A program made the translations under genes and the position numbers. DNA of 51,949 nt from an uncultured Acidilobus sp. JCHS (GTDB taxonomy: Archaea > Thermoproteota > Thermoprotei_A > Sulfolobales > Acidilobaceae), in assembly GCA_000495735.1 (NCBI GenBank), contig AYMD01000002.1, positions 23,189 through 75,137 on the forward strand, written 5' to 3'. Positions 30,090-38,397 of the stretch are shown here, piece by piece. Numbering within the stretch: position 1 is the stretch's first letter; the number at the start of each line of letters is the position of its first letter. The notes under the pieces are model-generated. The model searched no databases, had not been told where the DNA came from, and saw only the letters and a program-made list of their open reading frames with translations.

Positions 30090-31223
30090 GTGAGGAGGAA
30101 CGCCTTGAGGGTTCAGGACAAGCTGGCCGCCATATCGGCCATAAGGGTGCTCGGCCTCTCGCTGACCACGCCCTTCATAGGGGTCGCGCTCGAGGAGGCC
30201 TACAGGGTGCCGCTGGCCCAGGTATCTGCCTATTACGTTATACTAGCGGCCATGGGGGCGGCCGGGCAGGTCATTGGGGGCCTGGCCTCAGACAGGGCTG
30301 GCAGGGTCAGGGTGATGGCCTTCTCGGCCCTCACTGCCTTCGCCCTCCTGGCAGCTGCGACTGCCCTCGCCGGCAGCCCCCTGGCCCTTGAGGCGCTTAC
30401 CTCCCTTCAGAGCTTCTTCTCAGGCTCCTTCGCCTCAAGCAGCACTGCCCTCGTAGGGGACTACTTCAGCGAGCACGCAGAGCTGGTCAAGGCCTATGGC
30501 AGGGTCAGGGTAGGCGCAAACCTGGGCTGGGCTCTGGGCGCTGTCGTGGGGGGCTCCCTCTACCAGCTCCTGGGCCTCAGGACGCTCCTGGCCTTCACTT
30601 CCCTAACCCAGCTTAGCACGGTGCCGCTGATCCTGGCCATCCGTGAGCCGACCCCTAGGTCATCTATGAGGCTTGAGGCCCCCTCAGGACCCATGCTCCT
30701 CTTCCTCGGGCCCTCCTTCCTCACGTTCATTATAGCGGGGCTCATGGGCTACCCGTTAGTTTACTACTTCTCCGTGACCCTTGGCATGGGCACAGCCCTC
30801 GGAGGCTCGCTCCTCGCCCTCAACGGCGCCCTCGTGGTCCTGCTCCAGGACAGGGTAGCGGCCCTGGCCTCGAGGCTGAGGCCCTCGAGGGCCCTGGCCG
30901 CCGGCATGACGATCTACGCCATAGGCTATGCGATCCTCCCAGCAGTGAGGGGGCTGCCGGAGGCCCTGGCAGACATAGCCCTCATAACGGCGGGCGAGAT
31001 GGTGGCCCTCCCGGTCTCAAGTGCAGTGGCGGCGAGGCTCAGCAGCCCGTCCTCAAGGGGGACCCACATGGGGGTGTACGGCCTGACCGGATCAGTGGCC
31101 AGGACCCTGTCGTCCTCTATCTTCGCGGCCCTGCTCTACACGCTCCCCCCGTCCGAGGTCTGGGGCGTTGAAGCTATAGTAGCTACGGCCTCAGCCCTAG
31201 GCTACCTAGCCGTGCTAGGCTAG
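30090..31223 (+). CDS. MFS transporter, second of tandem pair
   Basis: A 377-residue MFS protein with about 11-12 helices, starting with GTG three bases after the previous gene, so they share a transcript. It has the loop 2-3 motif GGLASDRAGRVRVM (about 64-77) and a mid-protein charged loop (REPTPRSSM). It is only distantly similar to the first transporter, so this is not a recent tandem duplication. Two co-transcribed MFS proteins might form a heteromeric or two-substrate unit; that is a guess. It overlaps the convergent cysteine-hydrolase gene by four bases. Confidence 0.85.
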   Translation: MRRNALRVQDKLAAISAIRVLGLSLTTPFIGVALEEAYRVPLAQVSAYYVILAAMGAAGQVIGGLASDRAGRVRVMAFSALTAFALLAAATALAGSPLALEALTSLQSFFSGSFASSSTALVGDYFSEHAELVKAYGRVRVGANLGWALGAVVGGSLYQLLGLRTLLAFTSLTQLSTVPLILAIREPTPRSSMRLEAPSGPMLLFLGPSFLTFIIAGLMGYPLVYYFSVTLGMGTALGGSLLALNGALVVLLQDRVAALASRLRPSRALAAGMTIYAIGYAILPAVRGLPEALADIALITAGEMVALPVSSAVAARLSSPSSRGTHMGVYGLTGSVARTLSSSIFAALLYTLPPSEVWGVEAIVATASALGYLAVLG

Positions 31224-31750
31224 CCGAGGACCTTAGGGAGCTCGTCGCTGCTCACTACCGTGGCCCCGTAGACCCTCCTGTAGTACTCCTCCCAGTTCTT
31301 ATCTATGCGGGCCGCCACGGCGTCCCTGACCACAACCACCTTGTATCCCCTGAAGAAGGCGTCAGCGGCCGTGTGCCTCACGCATATGTCTGCGTCGAGC
31401 CCCACCAGCACGACAGTGTCGACGCCCAGCGACCTGAGTATGTGGTCGAGCGGGGTGCCGTAGAAGCCGCTGTAGGCGTGCTTCTCAAGCACGTACTCCC
31501 CCTCCCTCGGGGCCAGCTCAGGCACCACCTGGGCCCCCCAGGTGCCCTTCATGGCGTGAGGGCCCCAGAGGGGCATCTCTATGTCGGTGCTGTAGTGGGA
31601 GTCGTTCACGTATATCACTGGCCAGCCCCTCGACCTGAAGTGCTCAAGGGCCCTCCTGGCGGGCTCAACTGTTGAGGCCGCCTCGGGGGTCTTAAGAGCG
31701 CCGTGAACGAAGTCGTTAAGCATGTCAATAATCACGAGGGCGGGCCTCAA
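31220..31750 (-). CDS. Isochorismatase-like cysteine hydrolase (nicotinamidase-like)
   Basis: A 176-residue member of the isochorismatase-like family. The catalytic triad is visible: Asp9 in VIIDMLNDF, Lys90 in VLEKHAYSGFYGTPLD and Cys123 in DADICVRHTAADAF. NDSHYSTD (49-56) and the His in WGPH (65) fit the metal site of nicotinamidases, making nicotinamide deamidation the leading guess. The TTG start has GGTGA eight bases upstream and a CTTATATTCC box near 31781-31790. A 14-bp dyad lies in the leader. It is convergent with the MFS pair. Confidence 0.82.
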   Translation of the reverse strand: MRPALVIIDMLNDFVHGALKTPEAASTVEPARRALEHFRSRGWPVIYVNDSHYSTDIEMPLWGPHAMKGTWGAQVVPELAPREGEYVLEKHAYSGFYGTPLDHILRSLGVDTVVLVGLDADICVRHTAADAFFRGYKVVVVRDAVAARIDKNWEEYYRRVYGATVVSSDELPKVLG

Positions 31751-31763
31751 GCTCTCACCGTGA

Positions 31764-31777
31764 AGAACAGATGTTCT
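31764..31777. promoter_or_regulatory. 14-bp dyad in the cysteine-hydrolase leader
   Basis: AGAACAGATGTTCT is an inverted repeat with six-base arms around a GA centre. It lies between the TATA-like box (about 31781-31790) and the TTG start at 31750, so it may be an operator. Its short length makes chance plausible. Confidence 0.35.
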
Positions 31778-31911
31778 CCAGGAATATAAGCGTGCCTCTG
31801 GTGCCTAACAGTTACCTCTGAGGCCACCTAGACGGGGAGCCCTACGTAGTTGTTTCAACTTTCATAATATGTTTATAAGTTGCCACCGCAGTCAGCATAT
31901 ACAGGAGGTAC

Positions 31912-32625
31912 GTGTCTGTTCACTCAAGATGTGGGGTCCCTGGGGTGGCCCTGAACGCCCCCAAGCCCGATGAGGCCCCGAGCGGGATGCGGGGGAATAA
32001 GGATGAGGCGATGACCGTAAGGCAACATGAACCTATACGAGAGCTGAACCCCCTTAAGCCCCTCCTGGACCTAGACAGCTGGGCAAGGCCCTTGGCCAGG
32101 CCCATATACGGCCAGGGCTTCTTCCACGTGTCAAGGGAGGCCATATTCTACACCATAGTCTTCGACTACGCTGACGAGGAGATGGAGTACCAGCGCCTCC
32201 TCTCAGGCCCGCCTGAGGCCCTGAGGGCCGAGGAGGAGAGGCTCAGGTCAGAGATGCAGTCCCTCATGGACTCGGAGAGGGTCATAATAAACGGGGAGAG
32301 AGTGAGGCCCAGGGTCATCGCGGCCAGGGCAGAGGTGAGGGGGGAGCCGAGGAGGTCAACGGCCACCTTCCTCGTCGAGATGCCGTGGAGGCCAAGGACG
32401 GGGGTCAACGTCTATGAGGACTTCTACGAGCCCGACGTGGCCGAGTACGACTACGTGGTCTACTGGCTCATGCCCCCGTGCGCCTCGATAAGGAGCTATG
32501 AGATGCCAGGGAGGGCCAGGGTTGAGGGGAGGCTCCTGGAGGTGAAGGTCAGGGCAGGCACCAGGGTTGAAGGCTACGAGAGCATAGCCTTTGAGCTGCC
32601 TGAGGGCTGCCTCACAGCACCCTGA
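31912..32625 (+). CDS. Hypothetical protein
   Basis: Up to 237 residues, with no family recognised. The GTG at 31912 follows GGAGGT by only two bases. An in-frame ATG at 32011 (MTVRQHEPIRELNP) has GGATGAGG just upstream and may be the true start, giving 204 residues; the first 33 residues look unstructured. The body has IFYTIVFDYADEEMEYQ, a long charged helix (about 95-125), and strand-rich parts ending in GYESIAFELPEG. The upstream region carries TTTATAAG at 31872-31879 as a TATA box. It converges on the PIN gene, overlapping by 14 bases. Confidence 0.55.
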   Translation: MSVHSRCGVPGVALNAPKPDEAPSGMRGNKDEAMTVRQHEPIRELNPLKPLLDLDSWARPLARPIYGQGFFHVSREAIFYTIVFDYADEEMEYQRLLSGPPEALRAEEERLRSEMQSLMDSERVIINGERVRPRVIAARAEVRGEPRRSTATFLVEMPWRPRTGVNVYEDFYEPDVAEYDYVVYWLMPPCASIRSYEMPGRARVEGRLLEVKVRAGTRVEGYESIAFELPEGCLTAP

Positions 32626-33007
32626 CGGGCACGCCCAGCCTGGCCGCCACCTCGGCCTGCCTTGAGTCAGCCGTGACCAGCTCAGCCCCAAGCCTGAGGG
32701 CGGCAGCTACGAAAAGCGCGTCCTGCATAGTCAGGTCCTCCCTTGACGATATCTCGAGGGCGTCCTTAAGCAGATCCCTGAAGCCAATGACCTTCAGGCC
32801 CTTTCCCTCAGCGAGACCCTCAAGGGCCTTTGCGGCGGTGGCGGGGTCGACCTTGCTCGCCCTGACCCTCCTGGCAAGGGCGTTGGCCGCCTCGACGAGG
32901 GCCAGGTCAACTGTCGCAGCCCCTTCCCTCATGGCCTGCTCCACCTGCTCCCAGCCGTCCTCCCCCAGGAGGTACTTGACGAGGGCTGAGGAGTCGAGGA
33001 CCCTCAA
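32612..33007 (-). CDS. PIN-domain protein (VapC-like)
   Basis: A 131-residue PIN-fold ribonuclease-like protein. The acidic residues expected at the metal site are visible: Asp5 in VLDSSALVKYL, Glu near 39 in LALVEAANAL, and two aspartates in the C-terminal half (TMQDALFVAAAL and VTADSRQ). This is the VapC toxin layout, but no antitoxin gene (VapB/AbrB-like) adjoins. Instead the TTG start overlaps the stop of a MoaD-like gene by four bases (TTGA), so it is the third gene of the ferredoxin-MoaD operon. Confidence 0.85.
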   Translation of the reverse strand: MRVLDSSALVKYLLGEDGWEQVEQAMREGAATVDLALVEAANALARRVRASKVDPATAAKALEGLAEGKGLKVIGFRDLLKDALEISSREDLTMQDALFVAAALRLGAELVTADSRQAEVAARLGVPVRVL

Positions 33008-33273
33008 GTGAGGCCACCTGAGACCGGGGGCAGTATGGAGATGAAGTCGCCGTCCGATAGCCTCACCTCGCCAGCCCTGGAGGGCTCAGCGCTCCTCCCG
33101 TTGACAAGCACGAGCACCCTCCCAGCCATGGCTGACGTTAACCTGGGGCCGTGTATCCTCCCCAGCTCTCCCAGCAGGTCAGCCAGGCTCGAGCCCTCCG
33201 GCAGCTCGAGCTCCTCCCTGTGGACGCCAGCGGCCTCGACCAGCTGGCCCCCGAAGAGCACTGTGACCCTCAA
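33004..33273 (-). CDS. MoaD/ThiS-like beta-grasp protein with two residues past Gly-Gly
   Basis: An 89-residue ubiquitin-fold sulphur carrier or small archaeal modifier-like protein. It has VTVLFGGQLVEAAG at the start, the conserved VLVLVNGRSAEPSRA segment, and LSDGDFISILPPVSGG at the end. MoaD and SAMP proteins normally end in Gly-Gly, which is adenylated by an E1-like enzyme; here Leu-Thr follow, because the stop overlaps the PIN start. Processing or loss of conjugation would be needed. It lies eight bases after the ferredoxin gene, suggesting a role in tungsten/molybdenum cofactor delivery to an oxidoreductase. Confidence 0.85.
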   Translation of the reverse strand: MRVTVLFGGQLVEAAGVHREELELPEGSSLADLLGELGRIHGPRLTSAMAGRVLVLVNGRSAEPSRAGEVRLSDGDFISILPPVSGGLT

Positions 33274-33281
33274 GGCCTAGC

Positions 33282-33782
33282 TCACGAGCCCCTGGGGGCA
33301 GGGTAGGGCACTATGGGCACCAGCGCCTTCTCCTGGAGCTTGGCGAAGAAGTACCTCTTGAAGTAGGCTGCGTCGTTCACGTCAACGTAGGCCAGGGCGC
33401 CCTCGGGGCAGGCCTTCACGCAGGCCGGGTCGCCGCCGCAGAGGTCGCACTTGACGGCCTTCTTCTCAAGGCGGTCTATTGTTATGACCCCGTACGGGCA
33501 GACCATGACGCACCTCTCGCAGCCGTCGCACCTGGACCTGTCTATGACCACGGCGAAGGTGTTTGGGTCCCTGTATATGGCGTCATGGGGGCACACGCCG
33601 TCCATCGCACAGAGGCCGCACTGTATGCAGAAGAGCGGGGCGTCGAGGGGCTCCCTCTCGAGCCTGAGCACATGGATTGCCGAGAGCTCCGGGTCGAAGA
33701 CCTTGAAGTGCTCGAAGCTGCAGGCGAGCTCACACCTGCCGCAGCCAGTGCACTTCTCGGGGATCGCTATGAGCTGCTTCAA
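33282..33782 (-). CDS. Polyferredoxin-like 4Fe-4S protein (16 Cys)
   Basis: A 166-residue electron carrier of the DmsB/HycB/CooF type. Four cysteine groups are visible: CTGCGRCELAC (11-21), CIQCGLCAMDGVCP, CDGCERCVMVCP and CDLCGGDPACVKACP, enough for four [4Fe-4S] clusters. Such proteins pass electrons to or from a molybdenum/tungsten oxidoreductase or hydrogenase catalytic subunit. Crenarchaeal aldehyde ferredoxin oxidoreductase genes often have this type of protein and a MoaD protein beside them, and both are here, but no catalytic subunit is in the window near it. First gene of a three-gene operon. Confidence 0.88.
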   Translation of the reverse strand: MKQLIAIPEKCTGCGRCELACSFEHFKVFDPELSAIHVLRLEREPLDAPLFCIQCGLCAMDGVCPHDAIYRDPNTFAVVIDRSRCDGCERCVMVCPYGVITIDRLEKKAVKCDLCGGDPACVKACPEGALAYVDVNDAAYFKRYFFAKLQEKALVPIVPYPAPRGS

Positions 33783-33903
33783 GCCGGGCCCCTCTCAGGC
33801 TGGGCCCCAGGAGATATATTACCCTGACCTCCTCCCGGCCCCAGTAAGGGATGAGGTCTAGCCCCTCCTTAACGTTACGCCATCTAAGGAACGCCAGGCC
33901 GCG

Positions 33904-34455
33904 ATGGTCAGGAGGGGCTGGGACTCAGGCCTTGACTTCGAGGAGGCCTACAGGAGGATACTAAACCACATGCTGAGCTCCAGGAGCCCATACGACGTGG
34001 TCCTCCTAGTCCAATTGCGCAACGGCAGCCGCGTAGGCGAGGCCGTAGAGGCCACAGTGAGGTTCTGCGAGACAGACCAGGACCAGGTCCTCGTAAGGGT
34101 CGAGAAGCACAAGGACAATGACCTGCGCCTTATGGTCCTCTCAGAGGAGCTCAGGTCAGGCGAGGGCAGGCAGCTGCTGGGCGAGGCCTGCTCCAGGCTC
34201 TCAGCCCTCAGGAACCCAAAGGCCGCCGTAAAGGTGTACTGCCGCAGGGCCTACGGCTTCAACACCCACAGCCTGAGGTACGCCTTCGTTTCGTACCTCC
34301 TGAAGAGGGGCGTGTCGCCGAGCATAGTCGCCAAAATCACAGGCCACAGGTCGCTCGACCACATCCTTCACTACACTGAGGTCAAGCTGGCTGAGGAGGT
34401 ACTGGCTGGCCTCAGGGGCTGGGGCGCCTCGCCATCTGAGGGCCAGGCGCCTTGA
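33904..34455 (+). CDS. Short tyrosine recombinase/integrase catalytic domain
   Basis: A 183-residue protein that contains only the catalytic half of a tyrosine recombinase. The full active-site set is visible: Arg43 (NGSRVGEAV), Lys68/70 (RVEKHKDN), His122 and Arg125 (HSLRYAF), His148 (TGHRS) and nucleophile Tyr157 (ILHYTE). The N-terminal DNA-clamp (SAM-like) domain of XerA and phage integrases is missing, and there is no upstream remnant of it. It may be a stand-alone family or a trimmed integrase. It lies 60 bases upstream of the disrupted secreted-protein gene. Confidence 0.75.
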   Translation: MVRRGWDSGLDFEEAYRRILNHMLSSRSPYDVVLLVQLRNGSRVGEAVEATVRFCETDQDQVLVRVEKHKDNDLRLMVLSEELRSGEGRQLLGEACSRLSALRNPKAAVKVYCRRAYGFNTHSLRYAFVSYLLKRGVSPSIVAKITGHRSLDHILHYTEVKLAEEVLAGLRGWGASPSEGQAP

Positions 34456-34471
34456 CCTTAGGCCGCAAAGC

Positions 34472-34480
34472 TATTTATAT
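34472..34480 (+). promoter_or_regulatory. TATA box for secreted protein copy A
   Basis: TATTTATAT lies about 39 bases before the TTG start, giving a short leader that contains GAGGTG (34501-34506). The same box, as TATTTAAAT, precedes copy B. Confidence 0.55.
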
Positions 34481-34514
34481 TTCAAAGCGCAAAGCATCTT
34501 GAGGTGCGGTCCTC

Positions 34515-34862
34515 TTGAGGACCAAGGGGGCCCTGGCCCTCGTCCTTATCATCGTTGTCTCGGCATCACTGCTCGCTGGGCTGTTCTACGCGATGCCTAG
34601 CCTGTTCCACAGGAGGGGCGTGATAATAGTAAGGGCATACGCTATAGGGAGCGACGGGGGCCTGATCCAGCTGACCAACGCCTCGTTCTCGGTCTGGGCC
34701 TGGGCCCCCACACCTAACGGTACTGAGTTCATCCCCGTCTTCAACGGCACAGGGGCCCAGGCCGCGATAAACCTGACCAGGCTCGTAGGCTGGGCCGAGG
34801 ACTGGATAAGCACATACGGCATGGCGGCCATATTCTCCTTTGAGCCCTCGATAATTATCTGA
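34515..34862 (+). pseudogene. Secreted protein copy A, 5' part ending at in-frame TGA
   Basis: Encodes 115 residues: a signal/anchor helix (ALALVLIIVVSASLLAGLFY), then VRAYAIGSDGG and FSVWAWAPTPNGTEF. The frame stops at TGA 34860-34862 directly after FEPSIII. The intact paralogue on the minus strand (45447-47027) has Trp (TGG) at exactly this position in FEPSIIIWVSY. The frame then continues without a break for 452 more codons, so this is a full-length gene with one nonsense change (or a base-call error or readthrough site). Function of the family is unknown; it is probably an extracellular, glycosylated protein. Confidence 0.75.
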
Positions 34863-36218
34863 GTCTCATACCCCATAGCACTGCCCAACGGCAGCCTTGA
34901 GCTTGTGACCCAGCCCTCCTTCCAGCCCCTTAACCTGAGCCTCCCGCTGAGCGGCAGCGGGGCCGTGATAGACGTTATGGTGGGCCACCCCTTCAGGACG
35001 CTGCTGAACCCTGGCAAGGGCGCTGGGGTAGCTGTAAGGGGTCTCACCAAAGTGTCGCCAGGGCAGACCACAACGACGACCGTCACCACCACGCTAACTA
35101 ATATAACCACAACCTCATCCACGCGCCCATCAAACGCTTGCCCCATCTGCTATATGCCTATCGATCTCTTACTGGTACCTCACGTCATTGCTTGGTACCC
35201 CAACGACACGGGCATGGCCCCCATAAGCCTCGCCATTGCCTTGGCGCAGCCCAGTAATGTTAGTGGCAAAAACGATGCATATATGACCATAGGTATAACG
35301 GTGGCCTCTTCGTATGTCAAGCAGTTCACTATAAACGGCCTCATGATAGCTGGCAGCGCGTTCGACGCCGCTACGGATGATTACGAGGAGACGGGGAACC
35401 TGTTCCAGGCCGTCAGCAAGCTTTCCCCGCAGCTGGGGACCACGTTCACGTTCACGACTGAAGGAGAGATCGCAGAAAGTAACGGCGTAGGGGTCGAAAC
35501 CCCAACGACTGATGACGACATAGCCCAGCTCTACATGGTTGGCCAGGTGGCGCTGGTCAACTGGACGGCGTACATGCTGCCTCTGGTTTCCAACACGCCA
35601 GTAGGCTGGTACCTCGGCCTCCAGCTGACGGAGTTTAAGGCAGTGGAGAACAACAGCGCAGTGGCCCCCGTGATATATCGCTGGTGGGCCTACGACTCGT
35701 GCGTTAACCTGAGCGAGTGGGCCTCCTACCAGGAGGCCCTCATGCAGAACCCAAACTCCCTCTATTACGGTGAAATTAACTCCACGTGCCTGCCCCCTAA
35801 CACGCCAGCGCCCGTCATATGGCAGGACTACGCCACGAACCTGACGCATTTCACTACGATGAACCCTAACTCACAACAATACTACTACTACGTGGACCTC
35901 TCCGTTAACGGGGGCGAGTCGCTTCTGGGCATAGGCATTGACGCGGGCTCGGCCATAGCGTCGATTATAGGAACGGCCCTTATGGTGAGCCAGCCAGAGG
36001 TAGGCGCTGCCGTACTCGTGATAGCGGCGCTCCTAGGCTCCTTCCAGTACCAGTACCACTCACTGGCGGAGAGCGTAAACAGTTTTTTGGTAGGCAACAC
36101 CCTCCTGAATTATTACGTTAACATATACTACAGCAACCTGACCCCCGTGTACTATAACGCCAGCGGCTACGGCTTCACCCTGCCCAGGGAGCTGATACTT
36201 ATAAACGTGACCTCATAG
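34863..36218 (+). pseudogene. Secreted protein copy A, 3' part
   Basis: This part is in frame with the 5' part after the TGA and matches residues from VSYPIALPNGSLELV onward in the intact paralogue. Shared landmarks include PLNLSLPLSG, VPHVIAWYPNDTGMAPISLA, CVNLSEWA, NTPAPVIW and YYNASGYGFTLP near the end. A GTG at 34905 could restart translation and give a 437-residue protein, but without a signal peptide. A Thr-rich stretch (TTTTTVTTTLTNITTTSST, about 35070-35125) is longer than in copy B. The frame stays open and conserved, so inactivation, if real, is recent. Confidence 0.7.
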
Positions 36219-36231
36219 CCTGAAGGCTAAG

Positions 36232-36279
36232 GGGGCGCCTAAGCGCCCTAGTAAAATCTTTTTCTTCGCTTTCCCTTTT
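36232..36279 (+). terminator. Hairpin plus T-rich terminator of copy A
   Basis: GGGCGC at 36233-36238 pairs with GCGCCC at 36243-36248 around a CTAA loop. A T-rich stretch follows (ATCTTTTTCTTCG, then CCCTTTT). The same hairpin follows copy B, so it belongs to the duplicated unit and probably ends the transcript. Confidence 0.65.
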
Positions 36280-36440
36280 CGGCATGAGCCTCTAAACCTC
36301 GTGGCCTCAGCCCGCAGAGACAGAAGTGCCAGGAATCTTACGCATGGGGAGCGCCGTAAATGGGGCCCTGCGGGCGAGGCGGAGGTCCCTGGGCGCGAGG
36401 GTGACCATAAGCTGATGAAGGTAAGTCCTAGGGACAGACG

Positions 36441-36511
36441 GCTGGCCAGCCCCTCGAGGCGCCTCGAGGGGTCACGTGAGCTAATTTCATTTTCCACAAG
36501 CTTGTGGAAAA
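36441..36511. promoter_or_regulatory. Cluster of four perfect palindromes
   Basis: In 71 bases there are GCTGGCCAGC (36441-36450), a 22-bp palindrome with half-site CCCCTCGAGGC (36450-36471), TCACGTGA (36472-36479), and a second 22-bp palindrome with half-site TTTTCCACAAG (36490-36511), each exactly self-complementary. This density suggests protein-binding sites: an operator, a recombination or partition site, or an origin-like element. The TTGTGGAAAACGA half is loosely reminiscent of archaeal origin-recognition boxes, but no cdc6/orc1 gene is in the window. Confidence 0.6.
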
Positions 36512-36672
36512 CGACCTAGCTGGGCCGCTCGAGGGGCCTGACGCCCTGTTACCTTACGCCATTTAATAAACGCAGGACTTACATCAAGGCCTGGGGCTCC
36601 GCGTTAAGGCCCTCCTCAGTCACCTGTTCAAGCCTTGTAGTAACACATAATAGCCGGTTTGGTGAGGTCCCC

Positions 36673-37068
36673 TTGACGGGGTCGACCTTGAAGTACTCAA
36701 CCTACCTGATGGTCGGCGCCCTGACCTTTGACCTCCTGGTAGCCGTCGTCTACCTTATAGTGGCCCTGGGCATAGGGGCCCCGGCCCTCGCCAGCGGCTT
36801 CTACGCCTTCCTCGGGGCCCTCATCTTCATACTCATAGGCATGGGGGCCTCGCTCGGCCTGACAGTGGGCGGCTACAGGAGGTCAATGCTGGCCGTGAGC
36901 CTTGTCTTCAACCTGGCCCTGGCGGCCCTCATGTTCTACTTCAAGGCGGGCCTGGTACCTGAGGCCGTGACAGCCCTGGTGGCCCTCGTCAACATCGCGG
37001 CCTCAGCCATGGCTTACTCCGCCATGGGGTCGAGCAGGGAGGTCAAGCTGCCAATACTTGGGGTCTAA
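36673..37068 (+). CDS. Small four-helix membrane protein
   Basis: A 131-residue hydrophobic protein with four predicted helices (about 8-32, 37-63, 70-88 and 95-117), short loops and no recognised family signature. The start is TTG at 36673, preceded by GAGGT and a GTAACACATAATAG region that may contain the TATA box. It stands alone between the palindrome region and the convergent thermopsin-like gene. Function unknown; size resembles small multidrug or DUF-type membrane proteins, but no motif supports transport. Confidence 0.55.
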   Translation: MTGSTLKYSTYLMVGALTFDLLVAVVYLIVALGIGAPALASGFYAFLGALIFILIGMGASLGLTVGGYRRSMLAVSLVFNLALAALMFYFKAGLVPEAVTALVALVNIAASAMAYSAMGSSREVKLPILGV

Positions 37069-37074
37069 GCCAGC

Positions 37075-38397
37075 TCATGACTGAGAGCTGAGCGAGGCCC
37101 TCCTGAGCGAGACCCTTACTGCCAGGGCGGCGGCCGCTGAGACGAGGGCCAGGAGAAGGCCGTACCCCAGGGGGCCGGCCAGGAGGAGGGTCAGCGGGGG
37201 AGGGGAAGAGGGGACCGAGCCGTAGTAGGAGGTGTTCTCAAAGGCGGGGAAGCCCCCGACCCAGGCCACGGCCGTCACGTTCAGGTAAACTGCGTCAGGG
37301 GGGACGGCCTCAGAGGCCACGCCTGACGGCGAGGGCCTCAGGACCTGCCTCACGAGGGAGCCACCATAGTAGTACTCAACTGTCACGGTCCAGTTAGCGC
37401 AGGTCGGCCAGACGGAGGCGTAGGCGACCCCTCTGGCGGCCCTGACCAGGGCAGTGGCCATCATGGCCTGGCCCCCTGAGGCGCCCTGGGTCTCATTGAA
37501 GGCCCAGAGCGAGGGGTCCGGCCTCACCGTTACCCCCTGGGCCGAGGAGACGCCCTCAGCCGTCTGAGACCCCTCAGGCCACATGGCCGGGAAGCAGTAC
37601 CACTGCCCTGGCGGCGAGGGCGGCGACCAGGGCCCTAAGTAGTACCTCAGCGACGCCAGGGCGTCCCATGAGCCTATGATGGCCTCTGAGCCCTCGGCGT
37701 AGCCTCCCACCACGAACTCGGCGTCCATGCCTTCGGCCTGCCATATCACCATGGTCACGGGCTGCGGCAGCATAACTACCAGGAGGGGCCTGAGCGAGGC
37801 GGACCCGTTGAGGCCGTAGTAGAAGGCCACGTAGTCCCCCTGGGCGGCCACGGCCAGCGTGAGGTTGAAGGGGGAGGTCACGTTTGTCCAGCCGGCCGAG
37901 GAGTAGAGGTAGGGGCCCTGCGGAGACCTGGCCAGGCGGGCAGAGCCCAGAACCACAGTGAAGTTCAGGGGCTGGCCGAGGCCCGGCTCGTAGCCCTCAG
38001 GCCCCGTGAAGTTCCAGAGGTTTACCCAGGCCCTCACGGCGTACCTTCCTCCCCCGAGCTCCCTGACCCCGGCCACGGCCTGGGCCCAGTAGTAGCCCGA
38101 GGGCGATGAGGTGTTCCCCGAGACCAGGTCAACGTTGAGCTGGACGCTAACCGAGCTCCCAAAGCCCTGGGAGCTGAAGGAGCCGTTGATGAAGTAGAGC
38201 CAGCCCAGGGCCGCCGTGATGGGTATCGGGGACTGGGACGAGTAGCCGAAGGTCAGGCTCGTGTTGCCCTGGGACAGGGCGCTCTCCTGGACACCGTAGT
38301 AGGTCGGGCCGACGGGGCTCGCGGCAAGCGCAAGGCCCAGACTCATTGTAAGGGCGAACAGCGCAATCAGCAGGGCGGCCCAGGGCCTGAAGGGCAC
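37075..38397 (-). CDS. Thermopsin-like secreted, membrane-anchored protein
   Basis: A 440-residue extracellular protein. It has a signal peptide (about 1-26, ending LALAAS), and the next segment, YYGVQES then TAALGWLYFING, resembles the thermopsin (acid protease A5) start. SSVSVQLNVDLVSG followed by YYWAQAVAGV and VNLWNFTGP is characteristic of that family, as is the later FVVGGYAEGSEA. Thermopsins work at high temperature and low pH, which fits a thermoacidophile. Active-site residues of the family are not well defined, so activity is not proven. A C-terminal helix (about 406-425) followed by RRAS anchors it. Confidence 0.7.
   Translation of the reverse strand: MPFRPWAALLIALFALTMSLGLALAASPVGPTYYGVQESALSQGNTSLTFGYSSQSPIPITAALGWLYFINGSFSSQGFGSSVSVQLNVDLVSGNTSSPSGYYWAQAVAGVRELGGGRYAVRAWVNLWNFTGPEGYEPGLGQPLNFTVVLGSARLARSPQGPYLYSSAGWTNVTSPFNLTLAVAAQGDYVAFYYGLNGSASLRPLLVVMLPQPVTMVIWQAEGMDAEFVVGGYAEGSEAIIGSWDALASLRYYLGPWSPPSPPGQWYCFPAMWPEGSQTAEGVSSAQGVTVRPDPSLWAFNETQGASGGQAMMATALVRAARGVAYASVWPTCANWTVTVEYYYGGSLVRQVLRPSPSGVASEAVPPDAVYLNVTAVAWVGGFPAFENTSYYGSVPSSPPPLTLLLAGPLGYGLLLALVSAAAALAVRVSLRRASLSSQS

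Follow-up and report, generated by a model that had tools for sequence, protein, structure and literature searches.

The STSV/SMV (bicaudavirus) integrase family was named by Badel et al. (2021; PMC8371274), who detected no Pfam domain in it and do not include it in their table of integrases with demonstrated activity. In the Thermococcales, members of the pT26-2 plasmid family are type I, that is, they target tRNAs and the att site lies inside the gene (PMC6972569). Archaeal Xer/dif sites have 11-bp arms around a 6-bp spacer (PMC8371274).

The locus described here lies in a 51,949-nucleotide stretch of DNA (the window) from the 1.48-Mb archaeal genome G000. In pairwise comparisons its integrase is 33-35% identical over 89-92% of its length to those of ATSV, STSV1/2, ATV and SMV1, above the minimum that PMC8371274 uses for the STSV/SMV family (30% identity across 60% of the protein). 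Because PF00589 is detected in the window integrase, in contrast to the family as described, we keep the assignment at "nearest relative". The window integrase has no counterpart to positions 1-72 of the phrog_9208 profile (241 positions in all), and whereas the STSV/SMV viruses are 45-76 kb, here a free-standing 183-aa enzyme is found in an element of 2.7 kb that carries a single cargo gene. Among other mobile elements, the short integrase of the Pyrococcus abyssi plasmid pGE2 (pT26-2 plasmid family, PMC6972569) is 44% identical over 93%, and that of pMEFER01 is 39% identical. A palindromic site, TTAACTTTCATACGAAAGTTAA, lies ~70 bp upstream of the pGE2 integrase, with equivalents in L141 and L142, and the palindrome TTAACTTTC..GAAAGTTAA found upstream of the integrases of the Thermococcus and pGE2 relatives differs from the window core described below. 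The window also departs from the Thermococcales type I arrangement in that it has no nearby tRNA and its integrase gene stays intact. No relative of the integrase was found among IMG/VR viral contigs; relatives do exist in more distant genomes of the order. Literature searches on Acidilobus mobile elements and on STSV integration sites gave no title that describes this element.

The integrated element and its empty site

The first-pass annotation had placed the palindromes in a noncoding gap. The stretch is indeed noncoding (its sole overlapping ORF, 36213-36497 on the minus strand, has no family match), but the gap proved to be the right end inside an integrated element rather than an ordinary host intergenic gap. 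The element and its parts are as follows.

33878 to 36562, unstranded: integrated mobile element, whose joined flanks match contig C6 of G000 (L041)
33868 to 33893, plus strand: attL, made up of host CTTAACGTTA, overlap CGCCAT (33878-33883) and element arm CTAAGGAACG, read against the empty site L041 and the L040 and L145 cores
33904 to 34455, plus strand: short tyrosine recombinase/integrase, 183 aa, catalytic domain only (PF00589, E 1.4e-10; phrog_9208, E 4.7e-35)
34515 to 36218, plus strand: cargo gene, ~550 aa if intact, here split by an in-frame stop (TGA, 34860-34862) with the same frame on both sides
36219 to 36464, plus strand: noncoding sequence downstream of the cargo gene; three sister-species copies are 89-90% identical
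36512 to 36556, plus strand: conserved right-end segment, running up to the core arm GTTACCTTA (36548-36556)
36548 to 36572, plus strand: attR, made up of element arm GTTACCTTA, overlap CGCCAT (36557-36562) and host TTAATAAACG

Counted from the CGCCAT overlap on the left up to its copy on the right, the element is 2,679 bp long and contains the integrase, one broken cargo gene and a noncoding right end of ~340 bp. Both junctions carry TTACGCCAT (33875-33883 and 36554-36562), and contig C6 (L041) is a contiguous match to 33497-33894 plus 36551-37200 at 97.7% identity, differing from the joined flanks by two 1-base indels and a few substitutions. The shared junction sequence and the empty allele are what is expected at the filled and empty sites of a tyrosine recombinase integrative element, and comparison thus shows the filled element, its boundaries and an element-free allele in one assembly. 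Over its full 3,489 bp, C6, from the same assembly, is 98% identical to window positions 31058-37200, with several indels. It could represent a strain mixture or a variant of the same locus without the element, or else a second locus or copy in the assembly; since it matches further upstream too, at 98% and with other indels, we take it to be the same locus in a variant strain, lacking the element.

The recombinase-like gene reported at first pass is real. Alignments show that it has the residues R..K..HxLR..GH..Y, as expected for the recombinase of such an element (R..K..HxxR..H..Y), with the glycine of GH varying in some relatives. The nearest solved sequence is archaeal XerA, and Foldseek matched the AlphaFold model (mean pLDDT 83) to XerA and to the catalytic domain of HP1 Int, with marginal E-values.

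By BLAST, 33905-36464 is a multi-copy unit in the sister species (L038, L039 and L040; about 80% identity). The cargo gene, which has no match in Pfam or NCBIfam, is a single 549-aa ORF in L040; related copies occur at further places in both G000 and the sister genome, paralogues are present in other genomes of the family, and intact versions of ~550 aa are multi-copy in the genus. The conserved right-end segment recurs at L040, L042, L043 and L044, with pairwise identities of 81-94%. At L042 (G000:C10:4527-6923), the region of an MNT nucleotidyltransferase-like gene and its adjoining gene occurs twice, on either side of a solo right end, with an intervening run of N.

The recombination core

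The empty site reads AACGTTA-CGCCAT-TAATAAACG (attB, AACGTTACGCCATTAATAAACG). The window cores at 36548 and 33884 match a palindromic site, GTTACCTTA-N6-TAAGGTAAC; the attL arm has one extra C, which makes the overlap 6 or 7 bp. In the sister species, L040 has the full GTTACCTTA-GCTCAG-TAAGGTAAC immediately before the integrase; the core arm contributes an in-frame TAA, located 24 nt ahead of the integrase start. In L145, from a Desulfurococcaceae MAG, TTTACCTTA-CGGCCC-TAAGGTAAA lies upstream of an integrase that is 49-51% identical, and this core is the perfect palindromic site except for its outermost bases. Genome-wide pattern searches, from which all our genome-wide counts derive, found a perfect TTACCTTA-N6-TAAGGTAA once in G002 and once in G098 (the genome of L145), each time with an integrase adjoining. 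The only match to the core pattern in G000 is the right end of the element in contig C10, with 2 mismatches, a right end that recurs in G002; at the paralogous site C10:849, homology starts exactly at the core. These comparisons support a model in which the short tyrosine recombinase would act on a core of 9-bp inverted arms, GTTACCTTA and TAAGGTAAC, flanking an overlap of 6 (or 7) bp.

In layout, this core is like an archaeal Xer/dif site, with inverted arms and a 6-bp spacer, and the integrase has a XerA-like catalytic fold; it differs in its sequence, in lying at element loci, in having its own linked integrase and in insertion at several sites. A Xer/dif chromosome dimer site was rejected on the grounds of the 9-bp arms, the several element loci and the linked element integrase. 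An SSV-type suicidal integrase was also rejected, since the L040 core, with its in-frame TAA, is upstream of the gene and the gene is intact when integrated. No tRNA was found near the insertion site, which led us to reject a tRNA target.

Two further sites were noted. G003, which has no detected integrase of this kind, carries a near-core, TTACGTTA-ACGCCA-TAAGGTAC, at C1:533851-533872, with 2 mismatches and with CGCCA as in the window overlap. The L145 integrase with its matching core lies near a PriX/primase-like gene, which suggests that the L145 locus may be a larger integrated plasmid or virus with the same recombination site.

The locus brings together a filled site, its matching empty site and a core shared across archaeal families, all for an element that, at 2.7 kb, looks near minimal; the enzyme's target is therefore now directly testable. 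PMC8371274 gives no activity data for STSV/SMV-type integrases.

The palindromes of the right end

Four palindromes lie within about 120 bp of the right recombination core.

36440 to 36451, unstranded: GGCTGGCCAGCC, 12-bp palindrome sharing 2 bp with the next; not conserved, relatives carrying GGCTGGGCG
36450 to 36471, unstranded: CCCCTCGAGGCGCCTCGAGGGG, perfect 22-bp palindrome on a rearrangement junction, its left half present in homologues and its right half not
36472 to 36479, unstranded: TCACGTGA, 8-bp palindrome absent from homologues
36490 to 36511, unstranded: TTTTCCACAAGCTTGTGGAAAA, perfect 22-bp palindrome of the recurring family TTTTCC(A/C)CA..TG(T/G)GGAAAA, found at six loci in two species

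All four had been reported at first pass, the first of them as 10 bp rather than 12, together with the claim that perfect 22-bp palindromes are very improbable by chance, and this holds: by order-3 and order-4 Markov simulations, 52 kb should hold 0.025-0.033 palindromes of 22 bp, and none of 150 Markov runs placed two within 100 bp of each other. The two 22-mers, the longest perfect palindromes of the 52-kb window, are 40 bp apart, and such a pair is far beyond chance. The 8-bp and 12-bp palindromes are not remarkable, their lengths being at chance level (19 palindromes of exactly 12 bp in the window, with 15 expected). The palindrome DNA has strong hairpin potential (z -4.3), and an Rfam search of the region gave no known RNA, its one sub-threshold match being taken as chance.

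Judged by conservation in relatives, the yardstick proposed at first pass, one of the four palindromes holds up; the other three are absent from the homologous copies. Homology to L038, L039 and L040 breaks off at 36464, within the first 22-bp palindrome, and in L038 and L039 GGCTGGGCG-(A/G)(C/G)CCCTCGAGGCGCCT-ATTGAG stands in place of the first three. The CCCCTCGAGGC palindrome is best read as a by-product of a rearrangement that would have joined the cargo to the right end, and the two short palindromes look incidental.

The fourth, the TTTTCCACAAG palindrome, behaves differently. A genome-wide search with the strict pattern TTTTCC-N-CA..TG-N-GGAAA found six loci, distributed over G000 and G002. 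G001 and G003, which have no detected integrase of this kind, yielded none, and neither did the reversed pattern used as a control. All six are loci with an integrase or its remnant (window, L039, L046 and L124) or a right end (window, L042 and L043). Because several of these are orthologous pairs (L042/L043 and L046/L124), we count about four independent loci. From the palindrome centre to the core arm GTTACCTTA the distance is 47.5 bp in the window, 49.5 bp in L042 and 50.5 bp in L043, the latter two having arrays of two or three palindromes. Paired changes in the arms distinguish the copies (ACA..TGT or CCA..TGG; AAGCTT or AGGCCT), some of which are imperfect. The arms are spaced at 22 bp in the window and L039 and at 26 bp elsewhere, a variation that fits awkwardly with a single rigid dimer. 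Position varies as well: in L039 an identical palindrome lies within the 3′ end of the integrase gene instead of at the right end; in L046/L124 one palindrome is ~30 bp past the integrase gene with another further downstream. L038 and L040 have the integrase and lack the strict palindrome. Since the TTTTCC palindrome was not seen beside the integrase relatives examined in more distant genomes of the order, it appears to be a genus-level feature.

The cluster had also been proposed as a recombinase site. The integrase gene and the palindromes do belong to one element, but the recombination core, GTTACCTTA-N6-TAAGGTAAC at 36548 and 33884, is distinct from all four palindromes. Our preferred reading, to which we assign a probability of roughly 55%, is that the palindromes belong to the right arm of an attachment region and that the TTTTCCACAAG palindrome is an accessory site, either arm-type or regulatory. 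The progression from core through conserved spacer to one to three palindromes most likely reflects such an attachment region with accessory sites, to judge from its resemblance to that layout. The integrase would recognise the core, and excision would give a circular form in which the right end, the core and the integrase are joined, with the junction GTTACCTTACGCCATCTAAGGAACG. The TTTTCCACAAG palindrome, which at three right ends keeps a distance of 48-51 bp from the core and elsewhere is repeated up to three times, would serve as the accessory site, bound as a dyad by a protein of the element or of the host; the bound protein would shape the recombination complex, set its direction or repress the integrase. 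The palindrome cluster thereby becomes a specific question, namely whether a catalytic-domain-only integrase needs an accessory arm site.

Other readings of the palindromes and a neighbouring unit

The main rival, which we consider unlikely though worth keeping in view, is that the TTTTCC..GGAAAA palindrome is a self-spreading small dispersed repeat (REP- or MITE-like), concentrated in this element family and with no role in integration. In its favour, L039 has a 47-bp unit, made up of the palindrome and part of the right-end tail, inserted into the 3′ end of its integrase gene between duplicated copies of GGCGCC; the window and L040 copies lack this unit. The two- to three-copy arrays in L042 and L043 would also suit a mobile repeat, as would the copies that follow the integrase in L046 and L124. 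Such spreading is harder to reconcile with the confinement of every strict copy in the two genomes to integrase or right-end loci, with its absence from G001 and G003, and with a distance to the core that is held within 3 bp at three right ends. The Y1 transposase expected of a REP/RAYT or IS200/IS605 repeat was also absent: no Y1/RAYT transposase was found in G000, G002 or G003 (PF01797, positive in controls).

It is very doubtful that the whole set of four arose by chance, or as by-products of mutation, in a rearranged patchwork of GC-rich repeats. Three of the four are not conserved and one sits on a junction, as this would predict, but the fourth recurs at six loci with paired changes.

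We give still less credence to the idea that the palindrome and the right-end tail would be recombined as a folded single strand, in the manner of an integron attC, with the integrase moving hairpin-tagged cassettes independently. If true, it would account for the right ends without an integrase (L042-L044), for the hairpin unit inside the L039 integrase gene and for cargo genes swapped between integrase and hairpins.

A replication origin or partition site, as proposed at first pass, found no support and seems most improbable. On this account the palindromes would act as initiator sites resembling iterons, either for the host or for the element's circular form; the tandem near-palindromes of L042 and L043 do look iteron-like, and the half TTTCCA resembles the dyad of archaeal ORB elements. 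The element has no Rep gene, however, the nearest cdc6-family gene is ~104 kb away, and the regions searched around five of the cdc6-family genes of G000 and G002 have neither such a palindrome nor an ORB-like motif, so that the pairing of ORB motifs with cdc6/orc1 that marks an ORB-type origin is missing. An operator array for a neighbouring host gene, also put forward at first pass, can be given hardly any weight: the palindromes do lie ~160 bp upstream of ORF 36673-37068, but the element boundary at 36562 separates the two, the empty allele C6 has none of these palindromes although its sequence past the core is the same, and the palindrome recurs elsewhere beside quite different neighbours.

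A separate 80-nt unit lies at window positions 36363-36444 and contains a 12-bp stem, GTCCCTGGGCGC..GCGCCCAGGGAC. It matches no Rfam family even at E=1, and may possibly be a small RNA or a dispersed repeat. The copies show a paired G-C/A-T change, and the unit stands alone at three other sites in the sister genome (L045, L049 and L050).
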